A DNA stretch of 42,975 nucleotides from Candidatus Methanomethylophilaceae archaeon (GTDB taxonomy: Archaea; Thermoplasmatota; Thermoplasmata; Methanomassiliicoccales; Methanomethylophilaceae): positions 1 through 42,975 of the forward strand of contig JAFYAH010000004.1 of NCBI GenBank assembly GCA_017540825.1, in the 5' to 3' direction. Positions 1,941 to 42,975 of this stretch are shown here, in pieces. The translations under genes and the position numbers were made by a program. Position 1 is the stretch's first letter. Each line of letters starts with the position of its first letter. Under the pieces are notes generated by a model that was not told where the DNA came from, did not search any database, and saw only the letters and a list, made by a program, of their open reading frames with translations.

Positions 1941-3998
1941 ATGGTCCGCGTGGGTATCGATCTTGGCACAACCTACTCTGCCGTCGGGGTATGTAAGGAC
2001 GGAAAACCCGTCATCATCAAGAACTCTTATGGGAAGGAGCTCACACCCTCGAACATATGCTTCTACGAAGACGACGTGCTGGTCGGAGACGAGGCATACG
2101 ACATGATGGCCTCCGGCGCTGGAGACGGGGTCACCGCATTCAAGCGCAGGATGGGCATCCCTGGCGCGGTCGTCACCCACGACGGAAAGGAGTACACGGC
2201 GGAGGACCTTTCAGCCATACTTCTGAGACACCTCATCAAGGATGCCAGCGACGCCCTGGGCGAGAGGATCACAGACGCGGTGATCACGGTACCGCAGTAC
2301 TTCGACGAGACCAAGAGGCAGTCCACGATAAAAGCCGGCGAGGCCTGCGGCATCAACATCATACAGATCATCAACGAGCCTACGTCCGCCGCCCTGTACT
2401 ACGGCTACAACTACTCCAAGCAGAAGACGCTGATGGTGTACGACCTGGGCGGAGGGACCTTCGACGTGAACGTCATATCCTTCGACAACGGGAAGACCGA
2501 CGTGCTGGCCAGCAAAGGTGACCACTATCTGGGAGGCAAGAACTGGGACGAGGCCCTGATGAACCTCGCATGCGACGAGTTCGAGGACGAGTACGGCGTC
2601 GACCCTCGCAAGGACCTGGTATGCAAGAACATGATGATGGTGACGGCCGAGAAGGTGAAGAGGCAGCTGTCCGTGAGCACCAGCGCGCCGTTCGTCATAG
2701 AGTACCAGGGATGGACTGGCAAATACGCGATGACCAGGGACGCCTTCGAGCGCGCCTCCGAGCACCTTCTGATCACCACCAAGAAACTGTGCGACGACGT
2801 GCTGGAGGACTGCGGCATGAAATGGTCCGAGATCGACGAGATACTCCTGATAGGAGGGTCCAGCAGGATGCCCATGGTCCAGTCCTTCCTCAAGACGGAG
2901 ACGGGCAGGCCGGTGGTCCACCATCCGGACATGGAGCTCGCCGTCGCCAAGGGCGCCGCGATAGCCGCGATGCCCAGCCTGAGGAGGAAGGGCGACGGCA
3001 TGATCTCGGAAACCATCCTCACCGACGTGACCGCCCACAGCCTGGGAGCGATCGCCGTAGAGGAGGGCCAGGACCGGTACATCAACGAGATAATGATTCC
3101 CAGGAACTCCAGGATACCCTGCAGGTTCACCAAGAAGTTCCTCATCAAAGAGCGGAGCTGGACCAGCATGATCGAGGTGTTCGCGACGCAGGGGGAGTCC
3201 GCCGACCCCAACGACTGCGTCATAATCTCCAGATCGGAGATCAGCGGGTTCCGCAACGACGGCAAAGGCCTCACCATAGACATCACGTACACCTACGACA
3301 AGAACGGGGTCGTGGCCATCACGGCGGAGCACGACGGCAGCCCCCTGTCGGTGAAGACGACGCCGCTGCCCGAGGACATCACCTGGGTCACCGGAAAGCC
3401 CTCCGAGAGGAAGGACGCCAGGGAGGCCATCAGGAAGAGCATAGCGATCTGCCTGGACGTGTCCCGCAGCATGAAGAGCGACAAGTCCTCCAGCGTCGTC
3501 CCCTTGGAAGAGGCGAAGAAGTCCATCAAGAGCTTCGTGGACGGCTTCGACGAGTCCGAGGGCAACCTGTTCTCCCTCATCGTCTACAGCGAGAAGGAGG
3601 ATGTCGCATGCGAGCCCACGTCCGACAGGAAAATGTTCAAGGACGCCGTGGACCGCGTGAAGCTGAAATCCACCGGGAGAGGGACGGAGGCCGTTCCCAT
3701 AAACCTCGCCAGGAGCGTCGCCGAGAAGGCCGGGTACCTCTGCGTCATAGTGATACTGACAGACGGCAGGTGGGAGAAGAACATGGACAAGGCCATCACG
3801 CAGTCCAGAGAGTGCAGGGACGAGGGGATACCGATATTCGCCCTGGGCTTCGGAGACGCCGACAGAGGGTTCCTCAAGCAGATCGCGACAGTGGACAACG
3901 GAGGCATGTACACGCAGATCGAGAACCTCGGGAGCACGTTCGACACCATCGCCACAGCCATCAAGACCGAGAACATGGGAATAAGAACCAAGGAATGA
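1941..3998 (+). CDS. Hsp70-like ATPase fused to a C-terminal vWA domain
   Basis: 685 residues. Residues 1-~380 are an Hsp70 nucleotide-binding domain: V-G-I-D-L-G-T-T-Y-S (phosphate 1), Y-D-L-G-G-G-T-F-D-V near 167-176 (phosphate 2) and L-I-G-G-S-S-R-M-P near 304 (adenosine). Residues ~380-490 resemble the beta-sandwich substrate-binding part. Residues ~500-680 are a von Willebrand A domain with MIDAS D-V-S-R-S at 506-510 and a second L-T-D-G element, replacing the usual helical lid. ATP-driven client or partner binding combined with a metal-dependent adhesion-like domain is inferred. First gene of the operon; the next gene starts 7 nt after its stop. Cytosolic. Domain calls are firm; function unknown. 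Confidence 0.9.
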   Translation: MVRVGIDLGTTYSAVGVCKDGKPVIIKNSYGKELTPSNICFYEDDVLVGDEAYDMMASGAGDGVTAFKRRMGIPGAVVTHDGKEYTAEDLSAILLRHLIKDASDALGERITDAVITVPQYFDETKRQSTIKAGEACGINIIQIINEPTSAALYYGYNYSKQKTLMVYDLGGGTFDVNVISFDNGKTDVLASKGDHYLGGKNWDEALMNLACDEFEDEYGVDPRKDLVCKNMMMVTAEKVKRQLSVSTSAPFVIEYQGWTGKYAMTRDAFERASEHLLITTKKLCDDVLEDCGMKWSEIDEILLIGGSSRMPMVQSFLKTETGRPVVHHPDMELAVAKGAAIAAMPSLRRKGDGMISETILTDVTAHSLGAIAVEEGQDRYINEIMIPRNSRIPCRFTKKFLIKERSWTSMIEVFATQGESADPNDCVIISRSEISGFRNDGKGLTIDITYTYDKNGVVAITAEHDGSPLSVKTTPLPEDITWVTGKPSERKDAREAIRKSIAICLDVSRSMKSDKSSSVVPLEEAKKSIKSFVDGFDESEGNLFSLIVYSEKEDVACEPTSDRKMFKDAVDRVKLKSTGRGTEAVPINLARSVAEKAGYLCVIVILTDGRWEKNMDKAITQSRECRDEGIPIFALGFGDADRGFLKQIATVDNGGMYTQIENLGSTFDTIATAIKTENMGIRTKE

Positions 3999-4005
3999 TT
4001 GTTCT

Positions 4006-6978
4006 ATGCAGAAAGAGCCCTACTGCAAGATTCTCGGGATCAACCCGTTCAAGGAGAGCGAGTACGACGCCAAGAAGCTCGACGGCATAATCAGGGCGGC
4101 GTGCGAAAAATGGACGAGGGACTCCACCAACATCGACGAGGACGTGCGCCTCGAAGCCACGAGGAACCTCGACAAGAAGGCCCAGATGAACGACGCCCTT
4201 CTGGACCCGGAATCGAGAGGGAAGGAGTTCGAGGAGAGCAGGAAGACGCTGAAGTCCTTGCTGATGCCCCTGATGAACAGATGCCTGATCACGGAGGACG
4301 GGAAGAAGTACGCTTTCCCCAGGGCCGTCCAGGAGCAGCTCAGCAAGATAGGCTGGAAGGGGATCGGGCCCGAAGACGTCGCCGCGATACTCGGCCTGGA
4401 GAAGGGACGCCCCGAGCCTCCGGTCAGCCCCGTCGTCTCCAACTCGTACAGCTACCTGCAGAAGGTCAAGGCGAGCACGCCGATGGACGCCCTCAACGCC
4501 CTCATATCCAACCCGTCCCTCGGCATACAGCATCATTACCTCAACGATTCGAGCGGGACGGCCTCGGTAAAGGAGGCGCTGTCCAGATGCCTGGAGAAGC
4601 TCGCCGTCGTCAAGCTCTCCAACTTCCCCGAGATCAACTCTTACCTGGACTGCCTCAGGAAGCTCAACGCCCTCACCGACGAGGAGCTGGGGTCGCTCAT
4701 AGCATACAGCAGATGCTGCCGCGACCTGGACGACGCCATGGACGCCCTCGTTGCCGAGTGCTCCTTCGTCACCCGCAAGCAGATCGACGAGCTTCTGCCG
4801 TCGGACGTGGACCTGAAGCTGGGGATACCCGTGCTGGAGTCGTTCTGCTACAAGAAAGGCATAGCGGCCAACTTCTCCAGGACCGACACCAGCCTCGCCA
4901 GATGCCCGAGATGCCTCAAGCTCATCAACGAGGGCAAGGAAGCGATGGTGTGCCCCTACTGCGGAACGCCCATCAAGGCGAAATGCCCCAGATGCGGCAC
5001 GATGCAGAGCTGCGACAACAAGATCTGCATGAGCTGCGGGTTCGACTTCGTCAGGAACGTCGCGAACGCCAAGAAGATGGCCGTCAGCTTCCGCTCCAAC
5101 CTGAAGAAAGGCGACCTGCAGGCGGCGAAAGCCGACCTGGTGACGATCAAGGAGTCCTATTCGGCGAACATCAAGACTGCCACGCTGGAGAACGAGTACG
5201 AGAGATGCCGCGAGGACCTGGAAAAATACTCGTCCGTAGCCAAGGAGGCCTACAGGTGCGGAAGATACTACTCGGCGCTCGCGGCTCTCAGAGCCCTCGA
5301 ACGCAGATACCAGGAGGTCATCCCCAACAACCCGGATCTCGACTCGATGTACCGCAGCGCCCAGGGGTGCTTCGACCTCGCCCAGGAGTCCTGCGACGCC
5401 GCCAAGGGCGCGGAGGACGAGAAGAAGAGGCTGGAGCTGTACATCGACGCCGCGGAGCACTGCATGGACCATCCCGCCGCCAGGCAGTACCTCCGGAGCC
5501 ACCCCCCGCAAGGGGTTGCGGACTGCAAGGCCACCCCCACCAAGGACGGGACCATCCTGCTGACCTTCACGCCGCTGGGCGACTCCAAGGGAGTGTCGTA
5601 CTGCGTATACCGCGGGACCGAGGTCCCGGTGGTGAACGAGGACACAGCGCCCTTCGAGGTGCTCTCCAGGCACAAGGCTGAGACCGGTTTCGAGGACAAG
5701 ACCGTCGAATCCGGAGTCAAGTACCACTACGTCGTAGCGTCCAGGCGCTGGGGGATTCTTTCCAGGCCGATGCAGCACATAGGCCCGGTCGTCGCGTTCG
5801 AGAACGTCAGGAAGGTATCCATAAACCCGACGGAGGACGGGTTCCACATATCCTTCGAACGCCCTAAGGGGGCCCATGCGGTCCGCATAAGCAGATGCGT
5901 CAGAGGCGACGAGGAGAACTGCACCGACGTCGAGGTGGGAAGCGGCGAGGAATGCGACGACTTCTGCCTGGTCGGCAACATCTACATCTACTACTTCCAG
6001 ACGGAATACATGGTAGGCGACGTGCTGGAATCCTCGTCGTAGGAGGTCTACAACGCCCCTTCCATCAAGCTCCCGGACCCGGTCACCGACCTGAAGATCT
6101 ACCGCAACAAGTCGGACAGCACCTTCATCGCCAAATGGACGTCCAACTACAAGGTGACGCTCTACCAGACCTCCAAGAAGATCAACTTCAGCGGCAGGAC
6201 GATGAAGATGGACGACCTGACGGCGGTAATGGAGGAGATCGTGCCTCTGGACACGTACAACGACAAGATCCGCTTCTCCATGAGCGACGGCGCGGTGTGG
6301 TACGTGTACCCCGTCATCCAGGTAGGCAAGACGGCCATCAGGGGGGCGCCGGTATGCACCATGAACCTCGAGCCCTTCAGGGACATCGAGAGGAGGATGG
6401 TCAACAAGGACTGCGTAATCACCATGACCTGGCCGCCGGGCGCGATAGAGGCGGAGTTCAAGATCTCCAACAGCGAGATAAAGGACCCGGACGACCCGAA
6501 CCTCGAGAGGAGGACCGTCCGCCGCAAAGACTACGAGGAGGACAGGCAGGTCGTCATACCCATGGGCGAGTCGGTCAGGAAATACATACGCATATGCGCG
6601 AAGTACAGGGTGGAGGACGAGATCATGCCGTCTCGCCCGGTGGTCGTGAGCATCTATTCCGTGGAGTGCAGGAAGGTCAGGTACAAGGCGTCCAGGGACA
6701 AGAGGACGATGACGTTCAGCCTGTCCGCCGACCCGGAGGTGAAGGAGATCCCGGCGATCATGGCGGTCCAGTCCAGCGAGAGGATACCGCTCAGATCCGG
6801 CGACGGGGAGGTCGTATGGAGGTCCGAGGGGCCCATACCGTTCATCGGCGGCACAGCCACCGCGTCCTTCCAGTGCGGCCCGCAGACGGACATGGAGAGG
6901 ATAAGGCTCTTCTTCGTCGAGGAGGCCGACTACAACCTGTTCAAGTTCATCCATCCGATATACAGGAGGCGGCGATCA
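4006..6978 (+). CDS. J-domain-like / zinc-ribbon / FN3-like protein with in-frame TAG
   Basis: About 990 residues. Residues ~5-80 look like a degenerate J domain: P-Y-C-K-I-L-G-I-N at the start, a helix ending K-W-T-R-D where classical J proteins carry H-P-D, and A-L-L-D-P-E-S-R-G-K-E-F at the end. Two zinc ribbons follow (C-P-R-C/C-P-Y-C-G at ~300-318; C-P-R-C-G/C-M-S-C-G at ~327-345), a helical region to ~500, then repeated beta-rich FN3-like units. A TAG at 6040-6042 (codon 679) interrupts the frame between two such units; coding continues unchanged after it, so pyrrolysine insertion or a nonsense mutation is implied. The frame lacks a stop where the next gene begins: position 6977 is C where G would give ATGA; literally it runs on to a TAG at 7231-7233. 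Probable co-chaperone of the adjacent Hsp70s. Confidence 0.75.
6040..6042 (+). other. In-frame TAG (possible pyrrolysine codon)
   Basis: TAG between S-S-S and E-V-Y-N-A-P. Both sides are in the same frame (4006 and 6154 share phase), have the same codon use, and both encode beta-rich FN3-like sequence. Nearly all genes in the window end in TGA. Confidence 0.55.
6964..6978 (+). promoter_or_regulatory. Ribosome binding site and damaged ATGA start/stop overlap
   Basis: AGGAGG at 6964-6969 sits 5 nt before ATCA at 6975-6978. With G instead of C at 6977 this would be ATGA, giving the downstream GTPase an ATG and the upstream gene a TGA at once. The next two junctions of the operon (8222 and 9040) do use ATGA. 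Confidence 0.6.
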
Positions 6979-8225
6979 CGTTCGGGAGAAGAGAGAAGAA
7001 GCCGGCTACGCCGGAATACCTGTGCCCCCATTGCTTCGCCAGGTTCAGAATGGACACTGTGCACTCGGCGTGCAGCAGGGCGGGCTGCATCAAGAAGTTC
7101 GTCGAAAGCGCAGGCTATGCGGGCAACAGCAAGTACGTGTCATCCGCCCTCGGATGCGAGCTCGACCCGGAATACTCCAGCTTCATGGGAATCGCCGAGG
7201 GGGAGGAGGTCCTCCAGGCCAGGTACCACATAGTCCGCAACAGCTCGATGACGTGCGACATGTGCGGGAGGCGCACGTTCGTCCGCCTGTGCCCAGAGTG
7301 CCACAACGAGATCCCTCCTGGCGCGGAAGAAGGCGGCAACAGCATCTTCGTGGTGCTGGGGCCCAAAGGCGCCGGCAAGAGCCACTACATCGCAGTACTG
7401 GTGAACCAGCTCAGCAACTATGTGGCCGGGGAGTTCAACGCGGTCTTCAATCCGGCCGGCGACTCGACCATGGTGCACTACAACGAGATGTACAGGGACC
7501 CGCTGTTCAAAGAAGGTAGGAAGCTGGACTCCACCCGGCCGTTCAAGAAGGGGGACGACTCCAGGAAGCCGCTGGTTTACTACATGAGCATCGACAGGGA
7601 CGGCGCCCGCAAGGTGTACACCTTCGCCTTCGTCGACACCGCAGGCGAGGACACCGTCAGCACAGACACCATCAACAGATCCAACCTGGACACCCTGATC
7701 GCGGGGGCCGCGGGTATCGTCTTCCTGGTGGACCCGCTCCAGATAAAGTACATCAGGGACCGCATACACCTGGACGTCGTCCCCGGCCGCTCCGCTGACG
7801 CGGCGGACGCACTGAAGATCATAAGCAACACGATACGCGCCAAGCGCCAGCAGAGCGGGGGAGGCCGCATAGACATCCCCCTCGCGGTGACCCTGACCAA
7901 ATGCGACGTGCTTCTGAAGGCCCCGGAGGACGAGGAGGAGGACAAGATCCTCTTCTCCCCGGGATCGGCCGTCCGGATCCCTCGCGAGTCCGGCAGATAC
8001 GACAAGGAGAACCTCGAGCAGATAGACGTCGAGATCGAAGAGTACCTAAGGAGGACAGCTGGAGAAGACTTCATACAGACGGTGAACGGGTTCAGCGACC
8101 ACTGCTATTTCGCTGTGTCCGCCCTCGGAAGCAATCCCGAAGGCGACGACCTCCAGCGCGGCGTCATGCCTCTTCGCGTGGAAGACCCCTTCATATGGCT
8201 CCTCAACAGGAAAGGAATGGAATGA
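6975..8225 (+). CDS. Zinc-ribbon P-loop GTPase of the Hsp70 operon
   Basis: 416 residues if it starts at the ATC codon 6975, placed 5 nt after AGGAGG; no ATG, GTG or TTG exists before the first zinc motif. The N-terminal ~120 residues carry Cys pairs C-P-H-C, C-D-M-C-G and C-P-E-C-H, i.e. zinc ribbons. The GTPase domain follows: Walker A G-P-K-G-A-G-K-S near 129-136, switch II D-T-A-G-E-D near 221-226 and a base-recognition motif T-K-C-D near 307-310. This resembles the stand-alone GTPases found in multi-gene NTP-dependent conflict and signalling systems, though the exact family cannot be assigned by eye. Its stop overlaps the GrpE-like start (ATGA), implying coupled translation. Probably a nucleotide-dependent switch on the Hsp70 pair. 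Confidence 0.85.
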   Translation: MTFGRREKKPATPEYLCPHCFARFRMDTVHSACSRAGCIKKFVESAGYAGNSKYVSSALGCELDPEYSSFMGIAEGEEVLQARYHIVRNSSMTCDMCGRRTFVRLCPECHNEIPPGAEEGGNSIFVVLGPKGAGKSHYIAVLVNQLSNYVAGEFNAVFNPAGDSTMVHYNEMYRDPLFKEGRKLDSTRPFKKGDDSRKPLVYYMSIDRDGARKVYTFAFVDTAGEDTVSTDTINRSNLDTLIAGAAGIVFLVDPLQIKYIRDRIHLDVVPGRSADAADALKIISNTIRAKRQQSGGGRIDIPLAVTLTKCDVLLKAPEDEEEDKILFSPGSAVRIPRESGRYDKENLEQIDVEIEEYLRRTAGEDFIQTVNGFSDHCYFAVSALGSNPEGDDLQRGVMPLRVEDPFIWLLNRKGME

Positions 8226-9043
8226 GCGGTGAAAAAGAGAACAGACTGATGAGCTTTATCATGAACAACCGCAAATCTGCTAACACCAACACGGAATCCT
8301 CGAACGAAGTCGCCGACGAGCCCATGGAAGAGGAGGAGAGCCTGGCCATGGGGCGCATAGAGGAAGAGCTGAGAGCTATGAGGGAACAGCTGGAAGACAT
8401 GAGGGAGGAGCCGGAGCCGGGCATCCTCGAGAGGCTAGACAGGCTGGAGTCCAAGCTGGAGGACGTCCGCCTCGCCTCTGAAAGACCGAATGACGACATG
8501 GACGATCTCAAAGCCGGGATGCGCGAGCTTCTCGGCCGGAAGGCGGACCCCGCCACGTACATGACGTCGAGAGAGCAGATGAAGGCCATCGTCGCCGCGG
8601 TGGAGAGGAGGGATGCCGAAGTAGCCGACAAGGCGTTCCTGAGGTCTATGGAGCAGGTCGCGATCATGAGGGAGGACTTCCGCAAACTGTGCGACGGCGT
8701 CCGGGAGAAGCTGGACGTCATGAGCGCGGAAGAGGTCCTTTCGTCCTTCGAGGCGTACCTGGTGGACCTCGAGAACATACTCATCGATGGAGGGGCGTTC
8801 ATAGGGCCGTTCCCGTACGAGAGGCTGAACACCATACACCAGCGCATAGTCGGGGTAGTCCCCACGGGAGACGAGGAGAAGGACGGGACCGTGGCCGAGA
8901 GGCTGTCGGATGGCTACAAGCTGGGGAACAGGGTCCTCGTGAAGGAGAGGGTCACGGTCTACAAGCTGTCGGAGTCCATGAAAGAAAGAAACCAGTCGGA
9001 AACCGCTTACGAGGATACAGGAACAACGGAGGAAGAAGAATGA
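8222..9043 (+). CDS. GrpE-like nucleotide exchange factor
   Basis: 273 residues. The N-terminal ~130 residues are acidic and heptad-like (E-E-E-L-R-A-M-R-E-Q-L-E-D-M-R), a likely long coiled coil. The C-terminal part (~185-255) matches the GrpE beta-wing region: L-N-T-I-H-Q-R-I-V-G-V-V-P, then D-G-T-V-A-E-R-L-S-D-G-Y-K-L-G-N-R-V-L and V-T-V-Y-K. GrpE dimers open the Hsp70 nucleotide pocket to release ADP. It is longer than typical archaeal GrpE (~180-200) because of the extended coiled coil. Starts by ATGA overlap with the GTPase stop and ends by ATGA overlap with dnaK, so it is made with the Hsp70 it presumably serves. Confidence 0.85.
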   Translation: MSGEKENRLMSFIMNNRKSANTNTESSNEVADEPMEEEESLAMGRIEEELRAMREQLEDMREEPEPGILERLDRLESKLEDVRLASERPNDDMDDLKAGMRELLGRKADPATYMTSREQMKAIVAAVERRDAEVADKAFLRSMEQVAIMREDFRKLCDGVREKLDVMSAEEVLSSFEAYLVDLENILIDGGAFIGPFPYERLNTIHQRIVGVVPTGDEEKDGTVAERLSDGYKLGNRVLVKERVTVYKLSESMKERNQSETAYEDTGTTEEEE

Positions 9044-10611
9044 CGAAATACAGCATTGGCATCGACCTGGGCACCACCTACTCCTGCCTCGCCTACATAG
9101 ACGAGGACGGCAACCCCGTGGTCGAGAAGAACTTCGAGCAGGAGGAGACCACCCCCTCGGTGATACTGTTCAACGAGAACGGGAACATCATCGTCGGGTC
9201 TCCCGCCAAGGACATGGCCCTGATGTACCCCGAGGACAGGGTGGTGACCGCTGTCAAGAGGACCATGGGGACCGACTTCAAGATCTACATAGACGGCGAG
9301 TCGTACAACCCGGTGGCGCTGTCGGCGACCATCCTGAAGAAGCTCATAAAGGACTTCAACGACAACCACGGGTGCGAGATAGACGAGGCGGTCATCACCG
9401 TCCCGGCTTACTTCGGACAGAACGAGAGGGACCAGACCAAGACCGCCGGGACCATCGCCGGCCTGAAGAAGGTGCATATAATCAACGAGCCGACCGCCGC
9501 AGCCATCGCCTTCGGTTACGGGGAGAAGAAGGACGAGAAGGAGCGCGTGCTGGTGTACGACCTGGGCGGAGGGACCTTCGACGTGACCATCCTGGAGATA
9601 GACAACGGCGAGTTCACCACGGTGGCCACGGACGGCGAGAGGTACCTCGGAGGGAAGGACTGGGACAAGGACATGACCGACATCATAATCGAGAAGGTCG
9701 CCGAGGAGTCCGGCACGGATCCCGCCGAGCTCAGGGCCAACCGCGAGATCATGCAGACCCTCATATACGACTCGGAGACCATCAAGAAGAGGCTGTCCAC
9801 GGCGGAGACCACCAAGGGGACCCTCACGGTCGAGGGCCACAAGTACGTGTTCAACGTCAGCCGCGAGGAGTTCCAGAAGAAGTCCTCCGCCAACCTCATG
9901 ATGACCATAGACCTCATAAACAGGGTCCTCGAGTCGAAGTCGTTCACCATCGACGACATAGACGAGATCATCCTCGTAGGAGGCTCCAGCAGGATGCCCC
10001 AGGTCAAGAACGCCATCGCGGCCAGCTTCCCCGGGACCAGCATCAAGGTCTACGACCCCGACCAGTCCATAGCGAAGGGAGCGGCCATCTATGCCAGGTC
10101 CGTGGAGGCTATGGCGGACGAGGAGGCGGGATTCATACCCGAGGACGACTCCGCTCCCGTCAGGAAGGTCACCATAAAGAACGTCCTGAGCAAGACGTTC
10201 GGGATAAAGGCCATCTACGAGGACGGCTCCGAGAAGATCTCCAACCTGATATTCAGGAACGAGACCCTCCCCATCGAGAAGACCAAGACCTACTATCCTG
10301 CGGAGGAGGACCAGGCCACCATAAAGATCGAGATCTACGAGAACACCGCCGACAACAACGAGGACGGCCTCAGGACCGAGACCGAGAGCGGCAACCCGAT
10401 CGGGCAGTTCACGATGGACCTCCCTGAGGGCGCGACGAAGGAGACTCCGATCGAGGTCACCTTCCTGGCCACCGAAGAGGGAATCCTGACCGCCGACGTC
10501 AGCTGCATGGGGCAGCAGAAGTCCTACTCGGTGGAGAACGACCTCAAGATGACGGCCGAGGAGATAGAGAAGTCCCAGAGCATAATGGAGAAGGTCGTCA
10601 ACTGGAACTGA
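9040..10611 (+). CDS. DnaK-type Hsp70 with shortened lid
   Basis: 523 residues against ~610-640 for ordinary DnaK. Complete nucleotide-binding domain: I-G-I-D-L-G-T-T-Y-S, Y-D-L-G-G-G-T-F-D-V-T, L-V-G-G-S-S-R-M-P, and N-E-P-T-A-A-A. The beta-sandwich substrate domain runs to about residue 500 (T-F-G-I-K-A through the M-D-L-P-E-G strand); after M-T-A-E-E-I-E-K only one short helix remains, so most of the helical lid is missing. A short lid usually means fast or weak client retention. Last gene of the operon, translationally coupled to GrpE. Its sequence is much closer to canonical DnaK than the Hsp70-vWA protein, so the operon holds two different Hsp70s. Whether the genome has another dnaK is not visible. 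Confidence 0.9.
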   Translation: MTKYSIGIDLGTTYSCLAYIDEDGNPVVEKNFEQEETTPSVILFNENGNIIVGSPAKDMALMYPEDRVVTAVKRTMGTDFKIYIDGESYNPVALSATILKKLIKDFNDNHGCEIDEAVITVPAYFGQNERDQTKTAGTIAGLKKVHIINEPTAAAIAFGYGEKKDEKERVLVYDLGGGTFDVTILEIDNGEFTTVATDGERYLGGKDWDKDMTDIIIEKVAEESGTDPAELRANREIMQTLIYDSETIKKRLSTAETTKGTLTVEGHKYVFNVSREEFQKKSSANLMMTIDLINRVLESKSFTIDDIDEIILVGGSSRMPQVKNAIAASFPGTSIKVYDPDQSIAKGAAIYARSVEAMADEEAGFIPEDDSAPVRKVTIKNVLSKTFGIKAIYEDGSEKISNLIFRNETLPIEKTKTYYPAEEDQATIKIEIYENTADNNEDGLRTETESGNPIGQFTMDLPEGATKETPIEVTFLATEEGILTADVSCMGQQKSYSVENDLKMTAEEIEKSQSIMEKVVNWN

Positions 10612-30915: not shown

Positions 30916-31950
30916 TCAGTGTTGATGGTCTCGGCACTTGTCCTCGTGGCCGTCGTCGCAGCATCCGCATCCGCATTCGCCGTGGTCGTGGCAGTGGCAG
31001 TGGCTCTCGCCGTTGATGGAGAACTCGATGTCGGCGTCCTCGATGGCATGGAAAATCCTGTGGATCAGATCGTGCTCTTTCACGTCGCTGCCGCACGCCT
31101 CGAGGCGGAAGAACGCCTTGGGCGATGACGGAGCCTTGCCCTGTATGAGCGTGACGTCCTTGTCCTGAAGAGTCAAGACCGCCCAGTCCGAACCTTCCGG
31201 AGCGATGGTGATCTCTATCAGGTCCAGCATGCCGTTCTTTTCCTGCACCCAATCGAAGACCTCCCCCAAGGAGTCTATGATGCCCAGGACATCCGCTGGC
31301 TTCATGTCTACGAAGGTCCCTGTCATCGCGATAGCCACTTCCTCGTCGTGGCAGCAGCACTCGCCATCGTCGTGGTGATGGTGGTGATCGTGGTCATGGC
31401 CGCAGCAGCACTCGCCATCGTCGTGATGGTAATGATGGTCATGGCCGCAGCAGCACTCGCCATCGTCGTGGTGATGGTGGTGATCGTGGTCATGGTCGTG
31501 GTCATGGCCGCAGCAGCACTCGTCATCATCGTGGTGATGGTGGTGGTCATGGTCGTGGCAGTGGCACACGGGCTCGTCGAGCTTGTAGTCCAGGCCCGTG
31601 TCCTCAATGGCATGCCACATGGCGTGCTTGAGCTCGTGCTCGTCAACGTCCACGACGGCCGTCATGAAGGAGAACTTGACCTTGTCCTGCGGACCGAGCG
31701 TCCCATGGTGCTCCACGCCGTTCTCGAGATCGGTGAGGTTCAGGGTTATTCCCGAGCCGTCCTCCTTCACGATTGCGGCCTTGATGTGGCCGAGAAGAGT
31801 CCCTGTCTCGGCGACTACCCACTTTCCGACGGAGAGGAGGGCTTTCGCGAACCTGGCCTCCGCATCCGCATTGTATCCCTCGATGGTGCCGGTGAATCCG
31901 ACCGCGCATCCGCCTGCCATCTCCAAAGACGTGCTCTCATGATCGCTCAT
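30916..31950 (-). CDS. His/Cys-rich metal-binding protein with two-domain repeat
   Basis: 344 residues. Two homologous halves: each ends in a W/F-H-A-I-E-D block followed by C-H-C-H-D-H-type clusters (A-M-W-H-A-I-E-D near residue 108 and R-I-F-H-A-I-E-D near 305). Between them is a ~75-residue tract of near-repeats combining E-C-C-C-G-H-D-H and H-H-H-H-H-D-D segments, encoded by repeated DNA at 31351-31556 with unit offsets of 51, 45 and 63 nt, all in frame. High metal capacity (Ni, Co or Zn) is evident; a metallochaperone or store is inferred. It starts by ATGA overlap with the CobW-like GTPase and sits upstream of ramA. Confidence 0.85.
   Translation of the reverse strand: MSDHESTSLEMAGGCAVGFTGTIEGYNADAEARFAKALLSVGKWVVAETGTLLGHIKAAIVKEDGSGITLNLTDLENGVEHHGTLGPQDKVKFSFMTAVVDVDEHELKHAMWHAIEDTGLDYKLDEPVCHCHDHDHHHHHDDDECCCGHDHDHDHDHHHHHDDGECCCGHDHHYHHDDGECCCGHDHDHHHHHDDGECCCHDEEVAIAMTGTFVDMKPADVLGIIDSLGEVFDWVQEKNGMLDLIEITIAPEGSDWAVLTLQDKDVTLIQGKAPSSPKAFFRLEACGSDVKEHDLIHRIFHAIEDADIEFSINGESHCHCHDHGECGCGCCDDGHEDKCRDHQH
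31351..31556 (-). repeat. In-frame DNA repeats coding for His/Cys clusters
   Basis: A 12-nt core (GCAGCAGCACTC) recurs at 31351, 31402, 31447 and 31510, flanked by GTG/ATG-rich runs encoding His and Asp. Spacings are multiples of three, so unit gain and loss would keep the frame. Confidence 0.8.
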
Positions 31951-32534
31951 TTCATCATCTCGTATACTTTGTCCATGTTCTTTCCGGTCATGGCGGAGAC
32001 GGGTATGACGGGCTTGTCTGGATACTTGGCGTTTAGCCAGGCCGTCACCTCCTCCACCTGCCCGATCTTGGCGATGTCGCACTTGTTGATGAGAATGATG
32101 TCGGCGCTGTTCATCTGCATGGAGAAGAACTGCTCCTTCTTCTTGATGAGGTCCTCGAACCTCTGGACGTCCGCGACCCCTACGATGTAGGTCTCCTCCG
32201 GATCTATCATCGAGACGCGGACCAGGTCCTTCACCTTGTGGGGGAGGGCCAGTCCCGTAGGCTCGATTATTATGATGTCGGGGTCGATGTCCCTCACGAT
32301 GTTCTTGAGCGCCGACTGGAGCGTCCCGGAGAGGGAGCAGCAGATGCACCCGTTGGGGAGCTCGATGGCGTCGTACCCTTCCGCTTTGAGGGTGGCGCCG
32401 TCGACCCCTATCTCTCCGGACTCGTTGACCAGGAGGGCCGTCTTCTGCCCGCGTTTGGTGTACATGGACGCGAGCCTCATCAAAAGGGTGGTCTTCCCGC
32501 TTCCCAGGAACCCGCCCAATATATAGACATACAT
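31947..32534 (-). CDS. CobW-like (G3E) metal GTPase, short form
   Basis: 195 residues. Walker A G-G-F-L-G-S-G-K-T-T, the metal-binding G-C-I-C-C-S motif (C-x-C-C) typical of COG0523/CobW, I-I-E-P-T-G-L-A, and N-K-C-D (~150). The usual C-terminal CobW domain is missing, so this is a GTPase-only form. Family members insert or deliver Zn, Co or Ni. Co-translated with the His-rich protein, making a metal delivery pair comparable in layout to nickel GTPase/His-rich chaperone couples. A TATA-like TGTAAATAC ~28 nt upstream suggests a near-leaderless message. Confidence 0.9.
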   Translation of the reverse strand: MYVYILGGFLGSGKTTLLMRLASMYTKRGQKTALLVNESGEIGVDGATLKAEGYDAIELPNGCICCSLSGTLQSALKNIVRDIDPDIIIIEPTGLALPHKVKDLVRVSMIDPEETYIVGVADVQRFEDLIKKKEQFFSMQMNSADIILINKCDIAKIGQVEEVTAWLNAKYPDKPVIPVSAMTGKNMDKVYEMMK

Positions 32535-36976: not shown

Positions 36977-39900
36977 TCAGTCGACCAGGAAGAGCTTTCC
37001 TCCCATGCCTTCGAACGTCTTCCCGGCAAGTCCGTCGGCGGTCCTGGGGACGCCGGCGTCGCCGTCGTAGAACAGGTTCCTGAAGAACGCGTTCTTACCG
37101 ACAGACGAGAGGGACTCGGAGAACGCCACGGACGTCAGGCCGGAGCATCCGCTGAACGCGGAGGCCCCCATCTCCGAGACGCCGGACAAGTCCAGGGCGG
37201 AGAGGGACGCGCAATTCGCGAAGGAGTAGTCGCCCAGGAAGGAGACTGCCCCGAAGACGACGCTCTCGAGGCTGCCGCATCCCGCGAAGGACTTGTACCC
37301 CACGGAGAAGACGGAGCCGAGGTCGACGCTCGTCAGGGCCTCGCATCCGTAGAACGCCTTGTCGGCCACGGAGACGACCTGCCAGTCGAAGCCGAGGTAG
37401 CGGACCGTCTCCGGGACGGCGAGATCGGCGGAGGCCTCGGACGCGAATCCCTTGAGTGATACGGACTTCTCTTCTCCGCTGGAGACTATCCTGTACTTCA
37501 GGCCGCCGGCGGAGAAGGTCCCGCCCTCCTTGGGCACGTACACCTCGAGATGTGTCCTGCTGCCGGTGAACTTGTGGCCTGCTAGGGAGTCCGCGGTGGG
37601 CTTGATCTCCTCCTCGCCGGAGTAGAAGGAGCACTTGTAGAACGCGTTCTCACCTATCTCCTCGACGGAGTCGGCTATGACCACGTAGCTTATCCTCGCG
37701 CAGGAGCTGAACGCGCTCTTGCCGATGGACGCGGCGCCGTCGGAGATCCTGACGACCTTCAATGCGGAGCACCCGTAGAACGCGTAGGGCCCTATGTCGG
37801 CCCCTATGGTGACGGAGGTGAGGCCGTAGCAGCGGGCGAAGGCCTTCTTGCCGACGGTGACGCCGAAGGCGTGGCCGCCGACCTCCAGGGTCCCGGGTAT
37901 GGTCAGGGCTCCCTCGGGGGCGACGTCGTACCCGGTCAGGGTGACGGCCTCCGGGTCCATGGAGGCGATCTCGTAGACGAGCCCGTCGATCACCATGACG
38001 GTGCCGACTTCATAGGCGTACGAGACCCCCTCGAACGTGTTGTCGAAGGACTGGTACAGGAGCACGCCGCTCTTCTGGACCTCCAGGACCATGGAGACGG
38101 GTATCCCGGGCGCCCTTGCGGACCACGAGAACGACGCCGCGCCGTCCGCGGCCGCGACCGTCGACTCGGTGCTCGCGAAGGTCCCGTCCTCGAAGCCGAG
38201 CATGACGGAGACCCTCAGGGGGTCTGTGTCGATCGTCAGCACGTCGAAGGACAGCGATACCGTCCCGGGGGCGGCGCCGGCCTCGATGTTGGAGACCTCG
38301 TAGGTGGGTATCTCGGCCCAGGCCAGGTGGTACGCGGTCCCGCCCTCGGCGAACGAGGTGCCGGACAGGGACTCCGCCGCGTTGCCGCCGGCGTCCGTCC
38401 AGACGGGCATGTAGCCCTCCCTGTACACGCCGGGGAAGCTCCCGGGGACCTCGGTTCCGATGACGCCTATCATTGCAGAGTCGGCGATCTCGGCCCCGCC
38501 CTCGTAGAACCTGACGGTGGATACGTCCGTGCCGGGAGCCATCTTAAGGCCTAGGAGGGAGCGGTCGCCGATGTTCTCCGCGAAGGAGCACTCGGACACG
38601 CCCTCGCCGTCGATGTAGGAGAGCACGTCCCCCTCGCTGACGGCGGCGCCGTTGGCGGTTATCATCCAGTAGTGGTCGGTGTCGTAGCTTCTGTTGATGA
38701 AGGAGTCGACGGCGGCCCACTCGTACTGCATGACGGTGTTGGCGGGCGCATGGACGACGGTTATGGAAGACTCGGACACGACCTTCCCGAACATCCTCGA
38801 GACCTCGGCGTTGCCGTCTATGACCAGCAGCTGGGAGCCGAGCGACTTCGCAGCCTCGTAGGCGTTCTTCCCGTACGCGACGTGCCATCCCGCCTGGGAG
38901 CCGTCGTCGAGGAAGAAGTAGTAGGGGTTCTTCCCCGGAGAGGTGTATCCGAACACGTGGCCGGAGTCGTTGTACCATATCATCTGCCCGTCGCTGCCTG
39001 CGCGGACGGCCTGCGAGCAGTAGTCCCTGACGATGTGGTCGGTCGTGGTCCTGCTCATGACGTAGCCGTCGTCTCCGAAGTAGCATTCCATTATCCCGAA
39101 GGAGATGTTCTCACCGGAGTATGGAATCATATAGACGTATGCCAGGCGGCCGTTGTCCTCGGTGGAGTATGACCAGTCGACTACGATGGACCCATGGGAG
39201 AATATGAACTGTTCGGACCCGAGCAGCTCGCCCAGGGAGCCGTCCTCGTTCATGCTGAACGCATACAAGGTGGCGCTGACGCAGATGAATCCGATGCCAT
39301 TCTTAGCCACCATCTGCGATATGAACCCTCTCTTCCCGTCAAAGGTGTAGTCCTTGACCTCGCCGAACTCGAGCCCGTCGGCCTTGACGTAGGCCAGGCT
39401 ATCGTCGGCGTTCTTGGCGACGGCGCCGAACAGCCCGTTAGTGTATCCGCCGAGGTAGATGGTGCCCTCGTACATCGAGATCCACCCGTCGTCGAGGTAG
39501 GACCTCTCGAGCGAGGGCATCGCGACGTATGTGGAACGGCCGTAGTTCGGGGAGGAGTCGTCGATGCACATGGCGGTGATCCCCCTCTGGGACCCTTCCA
39601 CGTAGACCCTGTAGACGTAGCCGCCGTCGAACGCGCTCATGGCGAACCCGTAGCTGGAGTAGACGGGCTTGGCGAAGTCGCCCACCTTCTCCGGATACAT
39701 GACGCCGTCGACCGCCTGCGAAGCGTCGGCAGGGAACCTGTACAGAGATGTGCCGGAGTTCCAGAAGTAGCCGTCGTAGTACTCGTAGCCCTTGAAGCTC
39801 TTATCCACCGTGAATAGGAGTTCGAGATCGGTGTCGTACACCTTGTCGGTGTAGTAGTCGATGATCATTCCATGGCCGTATCCTAGCTGGTGGTAGAACG

Positions 39901-42900
39901 CGTTCGTGCTGTATGAGGGGGCCGTCTTGACCACGTATCCGGTGTCGGACTCGACCTTGTAGATCTTGTCGTAGATGCGGAGGTATACATAGTCGTCGAC
40001 TATGAGCGGTACGGACGAGTGCCCTCTCCAGGCCGATTCCGACTTGTCTATGACTCCTCCCGCCTCCCACATCTTGACCGTGGATGTCAGGTCGGTGGGC
40101 ATCCCCTGGTAGGTGCTCGAGATGAGCCCGGAGCTGCTGGAGTAGTAGCTGTACGTGACGGTGACGACGAGATCGTCAATCAGACCCTCTATGACGAGAG
40201 GCTCTCCGGCGGGCAAGACATTCAGGACGCCGTCGACGACGTAGCACCACTCGATGGGGTCGTAGCCCGGGTAAGGCGCCAGGACGAGCGAGTAGGCGGA
40301 CCCTTCCTCGAAATCGAACTGTTCGACAGCCGTGCCGTCCAGCAGCACGTCGCCGCAGTCCACGTCTATGAAGACCACGGTCCCCCTGGACTTCCAGTCG
40401 GGGACCAGCACGAGGTCGCCTAGGACCTGGGATCCGAAATCGTACTCTGTCCTGTCCTCTGCAGTCAGCCAGACGCCGCCGTACTCGGCCCTGCTCTTGA
40501 CGAAGGTGGGGATCTCCGAGTCGATTATGGTCATGCCTACGGGCACGGAGATCTGGACGCTGTCCTTCCCATCGGACGAGCCGCCGTCGCCCTTGAACGT
40601 CACCTTGGCCATGTCGCCGGAGGAGCGGTCTTTGGGCGATATGCTCAGAACGGTGTCGGATACCATCGAGACGACGACCGCACCGTCCTCAATATTGACA
40701 GTGGAGCCGTTGTCCGTGTAGAACTCGAGGTCGTAAACGGTGTACCCGCCCTCGACGTGGAGCCTTATCTCGGCTGCTCCCTGGGACACGCTTATACTTT
40801 CAACGACGACGTCCGCGGAGCCCATCTTGGAAGGAACGAAGACCCTGCTGCCGTCTCCGTATCCCTTGGCTACCTGGCCTATCGCGCTCAGAACCGAGAC
40901 GATCTCGTCCGGCGTCTCCTCTGGCACGTAGAACGTCAGCTCGCATCCGTTGCCGGAGAAGGACCTCTGCGAGAACACGGTCTGCTCCGGGCATGCGAGG
41001 AATACCGACTTCACCATGGCCGAATCCAGCGCGCCGTCCCTCAGGACGACGCCTTCCTTGTCGATCGTGATAGCAGAAACGCCGGAGTCCTTCAGGGCCC
41101 AGGCGCCTATCTCGGTTACGGGGGAGCCGTCGGCGACCGAAAGCTCGGACAGGCCGTTGGCGACGGCGACGAGCCTCCCGCCCATGAGGAGCATTCCGTC
41201 CTCGGAGCTGAAGTACATGTTGCCTCCGTCGCAGGAGATGCTGTCCAGGCCGTGGATCTTCAGGGAGTTGACGGCGATTATCCGCTCGCCGATGACCAGG
41301 TCCTTGGAGTCCACGTCAAAAATCACGAAATCCTTGTTGGCTATTTCGTTCGCATTGCCGTAAATCTCGTAGAAGCCTGGAGGCAACGTGATATTGGGAT
41401 AGGTGTACACGGACTCCAGCATAAGGCAGTTGGAGAGGTCGATGCTCTGGACGCCGCTCTGGTAGCCGCCGAAGGTCCTCAGCTGCGACCCGTCCTCGAA
41501 CACAATGCTGCTAGCTGCATACTTGAACGCGGAGTCCCCGACCTCGGTGACGGACGCCGGGACGACGATGTCGTGGACGATTCCGCCGGCATACTCTTGT
41601 TCGAAAGCGCTGTTGTTAATCTTGGTCAGCACGGAGTCCGCAGGCATAGATATCGTCAGCTCTCCCGTTGAGAGACGGTGGAATGCACCACCATATATCT
41701 CGTTGAGGCTGCGACAATTAGTGAGATCCACCGTGCGGACGCCCTGGAGGCCGCTGAAGGCCGCGTAGTCGATGGTGTTGACGCTTGAGCCTTCCTCGAA
41801 CGAGATATCCTTGCCGGACGCGTCGAGGAAGCCACCGTAAACGGCATTGACGAGAGTGTACAGGCCCGGCTCCCCTCCCTGGGCGGAGTATCCGTTGAAC
41901 ACGGCGGAGAAGGCGCCCTTGCCTATGTACTCCACCTCCCCGGGGATGACGATGCCGGTGTCGGACTCCGACCTGACGAAGTCGAACGCCTTGTCCATGC
42001 CGGCATAGCCCGCAGAGACCCGGCTCTCCTTGGCGAACGCCCCCTCGCCGATCTGCGTGATCACGCATCCCTCCGGTACGACGACCTTCTCCAGCTTGTC
42101 GCAGAAGAAGAAGCTGCCCTTCCCGACCGTGCATGAATAACCGTCCTCGTGGGCCCCGAAGACGACCTTGGTCAGGCTGTCGTTCTTGAGGAAGGCGTAG
42201 TCCTTTATCTCGGTCAGCTGGGACTGGTCGGAGAACTCCACGGTAGCCAGCTGCGTGCCGTAGAACGCCTTCTCACCTATTGTCCTGACGGTCGAGGGAA
42301 TCGTGATGGACGTTATCATGGACTTGCCGAACAGGTAGTCGGGAATGTCCCTGAGCTCTGGGTCGAACTCTATGTCTGCCAGGGATGCGACACCCTCGAA
42401 CGGGAACATACCCCACTCGAGGCCGGCAGGAATAGTTATAGACTTTATAACGGGATTGTCCTTGAAGGCGTAGTCCCTGACGATCGCAACACCATCGGGA
42501 AACACGTATTCGGAGCCGTCGCCTATATACTGGACCAGTTCCATCCCATCGTACGTTGTCAGCGATCCGTTTTCAGTTATCTCAAAATATCTGTTCTCTT
42601 CGCTCAACGTTATGCGGGCCTTGTAAGGGAGAGCACCCGGGCCAATTTTTTGCAGTCCCTTTGGCAGATACAGGTCGCCGATGAGGCTGCACAAGCTGCT
42701 CTCTCCGATCTCCTCCAGCTGAGAGTCCTCCGATATACGCAATATTGCCAGATTAGTAAAACACTGATTGCCAATACTCTTCACCGAATCGGGTAGAACC
42801 ACAGTGAATACGGAAGGAAGTTTAGAATGATCATCGTCCTGCACCGGCAGCTCGCCGACCACGGATATGCTGACGTGGTGGTAGAAGTTCTTCTCGGGGA

Positions 42901-42975
42901 CCGTGATCTCCTCGCCGGTGTCGTCGTCGTAGTCGAACGTCGGGGGCACGTACATATGGTAGTCGAACGATATGG
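36977..42975 (-). CDS. Giant BspA-like LRR surface protein (5' end beyond window)
   Basis: About 2000 residues visible; the reading frame continues past an internal Met at 42955 to the window edge without a stop, so the N-terminus, including any signal peptide, is missing. The first ~700 visible residues and the last ~280 are LRR_5/BspA-type leucine-rich repeats (I-G-x-x-A-F-x-x-C and V-x-I-P-x-x-V-x-x-I-G), as in gut microbial adhesins. Between them is an ~800-residue beta-rich region with Y-V-Y-L-R-I-Y-D-K-I-Y-K-V-E and similar strands, possibly a propeller, followed by InlB-like/cell-wall repeat-type sequence. No C-terminal anchor helix; it ends right after the last repeat. Likely extracellular and adhesive. 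Two tandem hairpins follow the stop. Confidence 0.85.
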   Translation of the reverse strand, partial: ISFDYHMYVPPTFDYDDDTGEEITVPEKNFYHHVSISVVGELPVQDDDHSKLPSVFTVVLPDSVKSIGNQCFTNLAILRISEDSQLEEIGESSLCSLIGDLYLPKGLQKIGPGALPYKARITLSEENRYFEITENGSLTTYDGMELVQYIGDGSEYVFPDGVAIVRDYAFKDNPVIKSITIPAGLEWGMFPFEGVASLADIEFDPELRDIPDYLFGKSMITSITIPSTVRTIGEKAFYGTQLATVEFSDQSQLTEIKDYAFLKNDSLTKVVFGAHEDGYSCTVGKGSFFFCDKLEKVVVPEGCVITQIGEGAFAKESRVSAGYAGMDKAFDFVRSESDTGIVIPGEVEYIGKGAFSAVFNGYSAQGGEPGLYTLVNAVYGGFLDASGKDISFEEGSSVNTIDYAAFSGLQGVRTVDLTNCRSLNEIYGGAFHRLSTGELTISMPADSVLTKINNSAFEQEYAGGIVHDIVVPASVTEVGDSAFKYAASSIVFEDGSQLRTFGGYQSGVQSIDLSNCLMLESVYTYPNITLPPGFYEIYGNANEIANKDFVIFDVDSKDLVIGERIIAVNSLKIHGLDSISCDGGNMYFSSEDGMLLMGGRLVAVANGLSELSVADGSPVTEIGAWALKDSGVSAITIDKEGVVLRDGALDSAMVKSVFLACPEQTVFSQRSFSGNGCELTFYVPEETPDEIVSVLSAIGQVAKGYGDGSRVFVPSKMGSADVVVESISVSQGAAEIRLHVEGGYTVYDLEFYTDNGSTVNIEDGAVVVSMVSDTVLSISPKDRSSGDMAKVTFKGDGGSSDGKDSVQISVPVGMTIIDSEIPTFVKSRAEYGGVWLTAEDRTEYDFGSQVLGDLVLVPDWKSRGTVVFIDVDCGDVLLDGTAVEQFDFEEGSAYSLVLAPYPGYDPIEWCYVVDGVLNVLPAGEPLVIEGLIDDLVVTVTYSYYSSSSGLISSTYQGMPTDLTSTVKMWEAGGVIDKSESAWRGHSSVPLIVDDYVYLRIYDKIYKVESDTGYVVKTAPSYSTNAFYHQLGYGHGMIIDYYTDKVYDTDLELLFTVDKSFKGYEYYDGYFWNSGTSLYRFPADASQAVDGVMYPEKVGDFAKPVYSSYGFAMSAFDGGYVYRVYVEGSQRGITAMCIDDSSPNYGRSTYVAMPSLERSYLDDGWISMYEGTIYLGGYTNGLFGAVAKNADDSLAYVKADGLEFGEVKDYTFDGKRGFISQMVAKNGIGFICVSATLYAFSMNEDGSLGELLGSEQFIFSHGSIVVDWSYSTEDNGRLAYVYMIPYSGENISFGIMECYFGDDGYVMSRTTTDHIVRDYCSQAVRAGSDGQMIWYNDSGHVFGYTSPGKNPYYFFLDDGSQAGWHVAYGKNAYEAAKSLGSQLLVIDGNAEVSRMFGKVVSESSITVVHAPANTVMQYEWAAVDSFINRSYDTDHYWMITANGAAVSEGDVLSYIDGEGVSECSFAENIGDRSLLGLKMAPGTDVSTVRFYEGGAEIADSAMIGVIGTEVPGSFPGVYREGYMPVWTDAGGNAAESLSGTSFAEGGTAYHLAWAEIPTYEVSNIEAGAAPGTVSLSFDVLTIDTDPLRVSVMLGFEDGTFASTESTVAAADGAASFSWSARAPGIPVSMVLEVQKSGVLLYQSFDNTFEGVSYAYEVGTVMVIDGLVYEIASMDPEAVTLTGYDVAPEGALTIPGTLEVGGHAFGVTVGKKAFARCYGLTSVTIGADIGPYAFYGCSALKVVRISDGAASIGKSAFSSCARISYVVIADSVEEIGENAFYKCSFYSGEEEIKPTADSLAGHKFTGSRTHLEVYVPKEGGTFSAGGLKYRIVSSGEEKSVSLKGFASEASADLAVPETVRYLGFDWQVVSVADKAFYGCEALTSVDLGSVFSVGYKSFAGCGSLESVVFGAVSFLGDYSFANCASLSALDLSGVSEMGASAFSGCSGLTSVAFSESLSSVGKNAFFRNLFYDGDAGVPRTADGLAGKTFEGMGGKLFLVD

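Follow-up and report, generated by a model that had tools for sequence, protein, structure and literature searches.

Does an archaeal operon coding for two different Hsp70s together with a J-like protein, a GrpE-like factor and a GTPase merely duplicate the housekeeping chaperones, or does it encode a dedicated machine, and in the latter case for what task? The question is raised by positions 1941-10611 (+ strand) of a 42,975-nucleotide stretch of Methanomethylophilaceae DNA, hereafter the window, where sequence and Pfam matches define the gene order Hsp70-vWA, J-like scaffold, DO-GTPase2, GrpE-like protein and lidless Hsp70. The original prediction, made from the letters alone, described an uninterrupted five-gene Hsp70 operon; all five genes proved real, but the length of the J-like gene and its junction with the GTPase gene had to be revised. 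Here, we addressed what these proteins are, how the operon is distributed and inherited, and which of several functional readings agrees best with these data.

Composition of the Operon

The first gene (1941-3998, + strand) is a single open reading frame with Pfam matches to HSP70 (4.5e-106) and VWA (2.3e-17), so that the proposed vWA domain on one of the Hsp70s stands. Pfam and alignments, including that with DnaK, assign residues 4-466 to NBD and SBD-beta and residues 501-664 to vWA, which sits where the lid would be and, according to the alignment and a MIDAS survey, keeps its MIDAS intact (DVSRS, GRGT, LTDG). The second Hsp70 (9040-10611, + strand; Pfam HSP70 2.3e-98), rightly described as lid-deficient, aligns with DnaK residues 5-510, again over NBD and SBD-beta. 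Thus Pfam and the DnaK alignment revealed no alpha-helical lid in either operon Hsp70, it being replaced by vWA in one and missing in the other; nucleotide motifs are intact in both, and judging from sequence both lidless proteins look ATPase-competent. The proposed GrpE-like factor (8222-9043, + strand; coiled coil plus C-terminal beta domain) gives only a sub-threshold Pfam match (6.6e-4), and its assignment was secured by an AlphaFold model matching solved GrpE structures (PDB 3a6m and 1dkg) with probability 1.00.

Tight spacing had been taken as a sign of joint synthesis, and a 7-nt gap after the first gene and ATGA overlaps at 8222-8225 and 9040-9043 were indeed found, but no ATGA exists at the J-like/GTPase junction. 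A TATA box (TATAAAT, 1911-1917, + strand) is centred about 27 nt 5′ of the first ATG, and in the 20 relatives inspected the Hsp70-vWA gene is preceded, at a similar distance, by a TATA-like box; since this position is kept, the operon probably starts there, and the box is the probable promoter of a leaderless transcript. The gene immediately upstream (885-1904, + strand; Pfam Sel1 9e-51) encodes a Sel1-repeat protein and adjoins the operon in 17 of the 20 fetched relatives, having the same orientation in the window and a divergent one in most relatives. From this conserved vicinity, it is a possible partner of the system.

Canonical chaperones are encoded in the same genome, at the ends of two other contigs (C44 and C62), as a grpE-dnaK pair and a dnaK 3′ end accompanied by dnaJ with intact HPD, which means that housekeeping is covered outside the operon. 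With the canonical DnaK-DnaJ-GrpE set the operon shares Hsp70 NBD and SBD-beta, the J fold and a GrpE-type nucleotide exchange factor, and it differs by the lack of lids (vWA occupying the place of one), the lack of HPD and the presence of a GTPase. These features bear on the simplest alternative, according to which the operon is a general stress set providing back-up DnaK for cytosolic folding without any special GTPase cycle. The intact nucleotide motifs of both Hsp70s and the presence of a GrpE-like protein agree with it; nevertheless, such a role appears rather improbable given missing lids and HPD, the GTPase in the operon and the complete DnaK system encoded elsewhere. No heat-shock signature was found, and the palindrome preceding the operon in relatives (described below) also precedes carbon-metabolism genes (malic enzyme, PEP synthase, acyl-CoA synthetases). 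Together with a separate dnaK locus, conservation of gene order was named in advance as a check on a dedicated system, and the same five-gene order was observed in 20 of 20 relatives fetched full-length, far above chance. For a relative to be included, its GTPase had to lie on a contig of sufficient length for reading, and neighbouring genes were identified by homology rather than by full annotation. The operon is therefore neither the sole dnaK locus nor an arrangement confined to one species, and its separation from housekeeping is upheld.

The J-Like Scaffold and Its In-Frame TAG

The J-like gene was initially thought to end at 6042 after 678 codons. Coding in fact continues to about 6972, and the gene covers 4006-6972 (+ strand) or about 989 codons, provided that the TAG at 6040-6042 (+ strand, residue 679) is read through. 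Its product comprises a J-domain fold at about residues 1-92, a double zinc ribbon (300-345) and a helical part. In the AlphaFold model of residues 1-330 (pLDDT 89) the J fold matches the DnaJ J-domain 5nro_B with probability 0.95, TM-score 0.73 by target and rmsd 3.0, but with an E-value of 1.8; the Tid1 J-domain is matched as well. The assumed J-domain partner was thus recognized correctly as to its fold, but it is devoid of HPD: this motif was found in none of the archaeal J-like sequences, and four bacterial relatives retain NHP without D. From its homology with bacterial orthologues, the C-terminus is predicted to be an FN3-type region; Pfam fn3 matches occur in these orthologues only (best 1.7e-5, in L177), the window protein giving none.

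The J-like gene of relatives encodes one uninterrupted protein some 990 aa long. In the nearest species (L031; protein-level identity about 70%), TAG occupies the same residue. Comparison of these two species gave dN/dS of about 0.23 downstream of TAG and 0.31 upstream, the former value indicating that the distal part is translated. Division of the region into two genes is ruled out by one-protein relatives and by selection acting beyond TAG. Since the codon is kept in the nearest relative and PylS is encoded in the window genome, TAG is probably decoded as pyrrolysine. Across 21 loci, core genes stop at TGA in 102 cases and at TAG in one, and reading through this single TAG brings the frame to the customary ATGA overlap. 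Infrequent use of TAG as a stop and Pyl-containing proteins are described for “Ca. M. alvus” in the part of Borrel et al. (2014; PMC4153887) considered here. Encoded PylS, rarity of TAG stops and TAG within a non-methyltransferase gene liken our case to the Methanomassiliicoccales Pyl proteins given there, among which the J-like gene is not reported. In-frame TAGs were also seen at the same position of GAP1 in two species (L156, 10610-10612; L160, 10607-10609), relatives having Leu, and in one second Hsp70 (L151, 9688-9690). As judged from these codons, sense use of TAG is widespread, and a peculiarity of the J-like gene is ruled out.

The DO-GTPases

The predicted zinc-ribbon GTPase is confirmed as DO-GTPase2 (6978-8225, + strand; Pfam 1.4e-12 and alignment), having two N-terminal zinc ribbons with conserved zinc-binding Cys and intact motifs GPKGAGKS (Walker A), DTAGED and TKCD. 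A profile of the protein compared with PDB sequences gave no solved relative above noise. At its junction with the J-like gene, relatives have TGA followed by ATG and the window reads GGCGGCGATCACG, lacking both the J stop and the GTPase ATG. Initiation at ACG (6978, used here for the gene boundary) or ATC (6975) after AGGAGG (6964-6969) would explain this arrangement, as would an assembly error; one further relative (L033) also has no ATG at this point.

The in-frame TAG, the stop and ATG missing in the window and the loss of HPD might be taken for signs of decay, implying that the operon is a remnant which lost GAP1 (a component of related systems, see below), had its J-like gene broken and was deprived of the GTPase start. 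This appears very improbable: TAG is common to species about 70% identical, purifying selection extends beyond it, PylS is encoded with TAG nearly unused as a stop, frames are intact in other relatives, and the missing ATG, likewise observed in L033, may be an assembly error of the window MAG.

A second, membrane-bound DO-GTPase is encoded elsewhere in 38 of 55 genomes having the core and in none of 24 family genomes without the operon. It bears N-terminal hydrophobic segments, which none of the five operon proteins has. The copy of the window genome (contig C50) scores just below the 27-bit cut-off (24.8 bits, Pfam DO-GTPase2 2e-5). No membrane DO-GTPase was detectable throughout genus g24 or in most of g21, so that it is either dispensable there or has diverged beyond detection. 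Its gene adjoins that of a PpiC-type prolyl isomerase in several genomes (L200, L202, L203 and L206); in the clade of the window, the PpiC-type gene is replaced as a neighbour by a glycosyltransferase-like gene and by genes for large proteins that look secreted.

Relation to GAP1-N2 DO-GTPase Systems

The GTPase and the vWA-bearing Hsp70 had been regarded as an unusual combination suggestive of defence or signalling. That it is unusual as such is not supported, the same combination being found also in Azospirillum, Alkalihalobacterium, Lachnospiraceae and others, and the pointer to conflict or signalling systems was apt, matching the Hsp70 theme of DO-GTPase/GAP1-N2 systems. These were described, with a Hsp70/GrpE theme, as predicted conflict systems (Kaur, Burroughs, Iyer and Aravind, 2020; PMC7159879), and in the portion of that text considered here Hsp70-type systems rest on computational prediction. 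Bacterial loci (Azospirillum, Alkalihalobacterium and others) have the order GrpE, Hsp70, Hsp70-vWA, J/FN3, DO-GTPase, GAP1 and TM-GTPase, the last not being seen in the Lachnospiraceae stretch; Pfam confirmed GAP1-N2, DO-GTPase2 and the Hsp70-vWA fusion in the bacterial loci, and assigned fn3, TPR and zinc ribbons to the J/FN3 protein. The archaeal operon contains the first five parts in a different order and has no GAP1. Within the limits of the published passages referred to, it resembles the theme in zinc-ribbon DO-GTPase, Hsp70, GrpE and second Hsp70, as well as in the TM DO-GTPase present in most core genomes; the FNIII protein, which the theme has fused to DnaJ or TPR, may correspond to the J-fold scaffold with its predicted FN3-type end. 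The operon departs from the theme in the absence of GAP1, altered order, vertical inheritance in gut methanogens and, in the genus of the window, a membrane GTPase unlinked from the operon. The same passages characterize the second Hsp70 only as lacking the peptide-binding domain and do not mention the vWA fusion found in archaea and bacteria. Since GAP1 defines the published systems, the operon, as far as sequence comparison goes, is a GAP1-less relative of them and not a member, and what is new is a GAP1-less, vertically inherited version of the Hsp70-type DO-GTPase system. Another known system, CoCoNuT type III (PMC11090510), likewise has Hsp70 NBD/SBD (CnuD) in a GTPase-bearing operon with VWA genes nearby; it differs by McrB GTPase, a degenerate Walker A-like motif in CnuD and nuclease effectors, and its VWA is not described as fused to Hsp70, unlike that of the operon.

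The Pfam GAP1-N2 model found no GAP1-N2 in the operon and none anywhere in 49 of 55 core genomes. It is present in six of 79 family genomes, all from the genus of the window, always at a second locus. The window genome is among them, its fuller locus on contig C35 (L061, 6556-18639) encoding GAP1-N2, DO-GTPase, TM-GTPase, Hsp70, Hsp70-vWA and a J-like protein.

Distribution and Inheritance

The survey covered 79 Methanomethylophilaceae genomes at least 80% complete, many of them incomplete MAGs. Taken as a marker of the core, the GTPase occurs in 55 of these and in five of 12 genera, being nearly all-or-none by genus: 26/26, 3/3, 12/12, 10/10 and 4/5 in five genera and 0/23 in the seven others, where one genome (G006) gave only a fragmented, paralogous match. 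In 293 sampled genomes of the phylum, Hsp70-vWA was detected at the cut-off used in 21, all Methanomethylophilaceae, and the core was found in none outside this family. GAP1-less copies, mostly single in the genome, form one clade with support 99/94 in a tree leaving out the long-branch L158. Genus-wise presence, flanks (Sel1 and UspA) conserved across relatives and a single clade indicate, by sequence comparison, that the operon is inherited vertically in the family and is not a mobile island.

These data bear on the possibility that the operon still acts as an anti-invader conflict system, FN3 and vWA serving as sensors, GTPase and Hsp70 setting the threshold and effectors being encoded elsewhere. 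Homology to DO-GTPase/GAP1-N2 systems, predicted to function in conflict (Kaur et al.), and the fuller GAP1-containing copy at C35 of the same genome speak for it. We nevertheless consider it unlikely, as the operon has no GAP1, no recognisable effector is found beside it, a PADLOC scan gave no match beyond noise, and even for GAP1 systems defence is a prediction in the text of PMC7159879 referred to above. An NCBIfam scan returned no specific family. A mobile, patchy distribution with variable effectors was not observed; with its fixed synteny and its occurrence in nearly all genomes of five genera, the operon does not behave like mobile defence genes. The defence role suggested at first is weakened accordingly for the window copy.

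Proposed Function

The reading we prefer, with a probability of about 0.45, is that the operon encodes a cytosolic GTPase-gated Hsp70 machine derived from Hsp70-type DO-GTPase conflict systems, which lost GAP1 and acquired a fixed cellular function. Since inheritance is fixed and effectors are lacking, a maintenance role is favoured over suicidal defence; the machine would be likely to remodel proteins of the membrane or cell surface or to control their quality. As suggested by operon structure and co-occurrence, the scaffold would dock both Hsp70s and the GTPase. Clients might be engaged by the vWA metal site and SBD-beta or by FN3 arms, and this engagement might be linked to the soluble DO-GTPase pairing, in a GTP-dependent manner, with its membrane partner where there is one. 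GTP hydrolysis, instead of an HPD-bearing J-domain, would license Hsp70 either to hydrolyse ATP or to release its client, and resetting of the cycle would fall to the GrpE-like protein. Client identity and the coupling of GTPase to Hsp70 are guesses. A more specific version, in which the soluble and membrane DO-GTPases as a pair took over the trigger from the HPD J-domain and the vWA MIDAS became the client receptor in the course of conflict-system domestication, is regarded as doubtful.

The operon, which lacks GAP1, is of interest as a minimal Hsp70-GTPase core that is syntenic and nearly universal in five genera, complete genomes being available for some of these. Its biochemistry is thereby open to direct testing, free of toxic effectors. 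The Hsp70-vWA fusion and the loss of HPD are common to archaeal and bacterial versions, and the operon suggests that a conflict system can turn into a cell-maintenance machine.

Upstream Palindrome and Other Window ORFs

The palindrome CTACGAAWWTCGTAG precedes the operon in most relatives (L094-L113), with a handful of sites per genome compared to 0-1 for the control. It was also observed 5′ of genes for malic enzyme, pyridine nucleotide-disulphide oxidoreductase, PEP synthase and acyl-CoA synthetases and may define a small carbon-metabolism regulon, which would include the operon in relatives and not in the window species. As an operator of the operon in the latter it was rejected, being absent there and present in relatives. 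Elsewhere in the window, the ORF list contains a CobW-like nucleotide-binding ORF followed by a His/Asp/Cys-rich repeat ORF (HDHDHHHHHDDGECCC) at 30916-32534, and the translation of a 1992-aa ORF at 36977-42955 resembles, by eye, a BspA-type leucine-rich surface protein.
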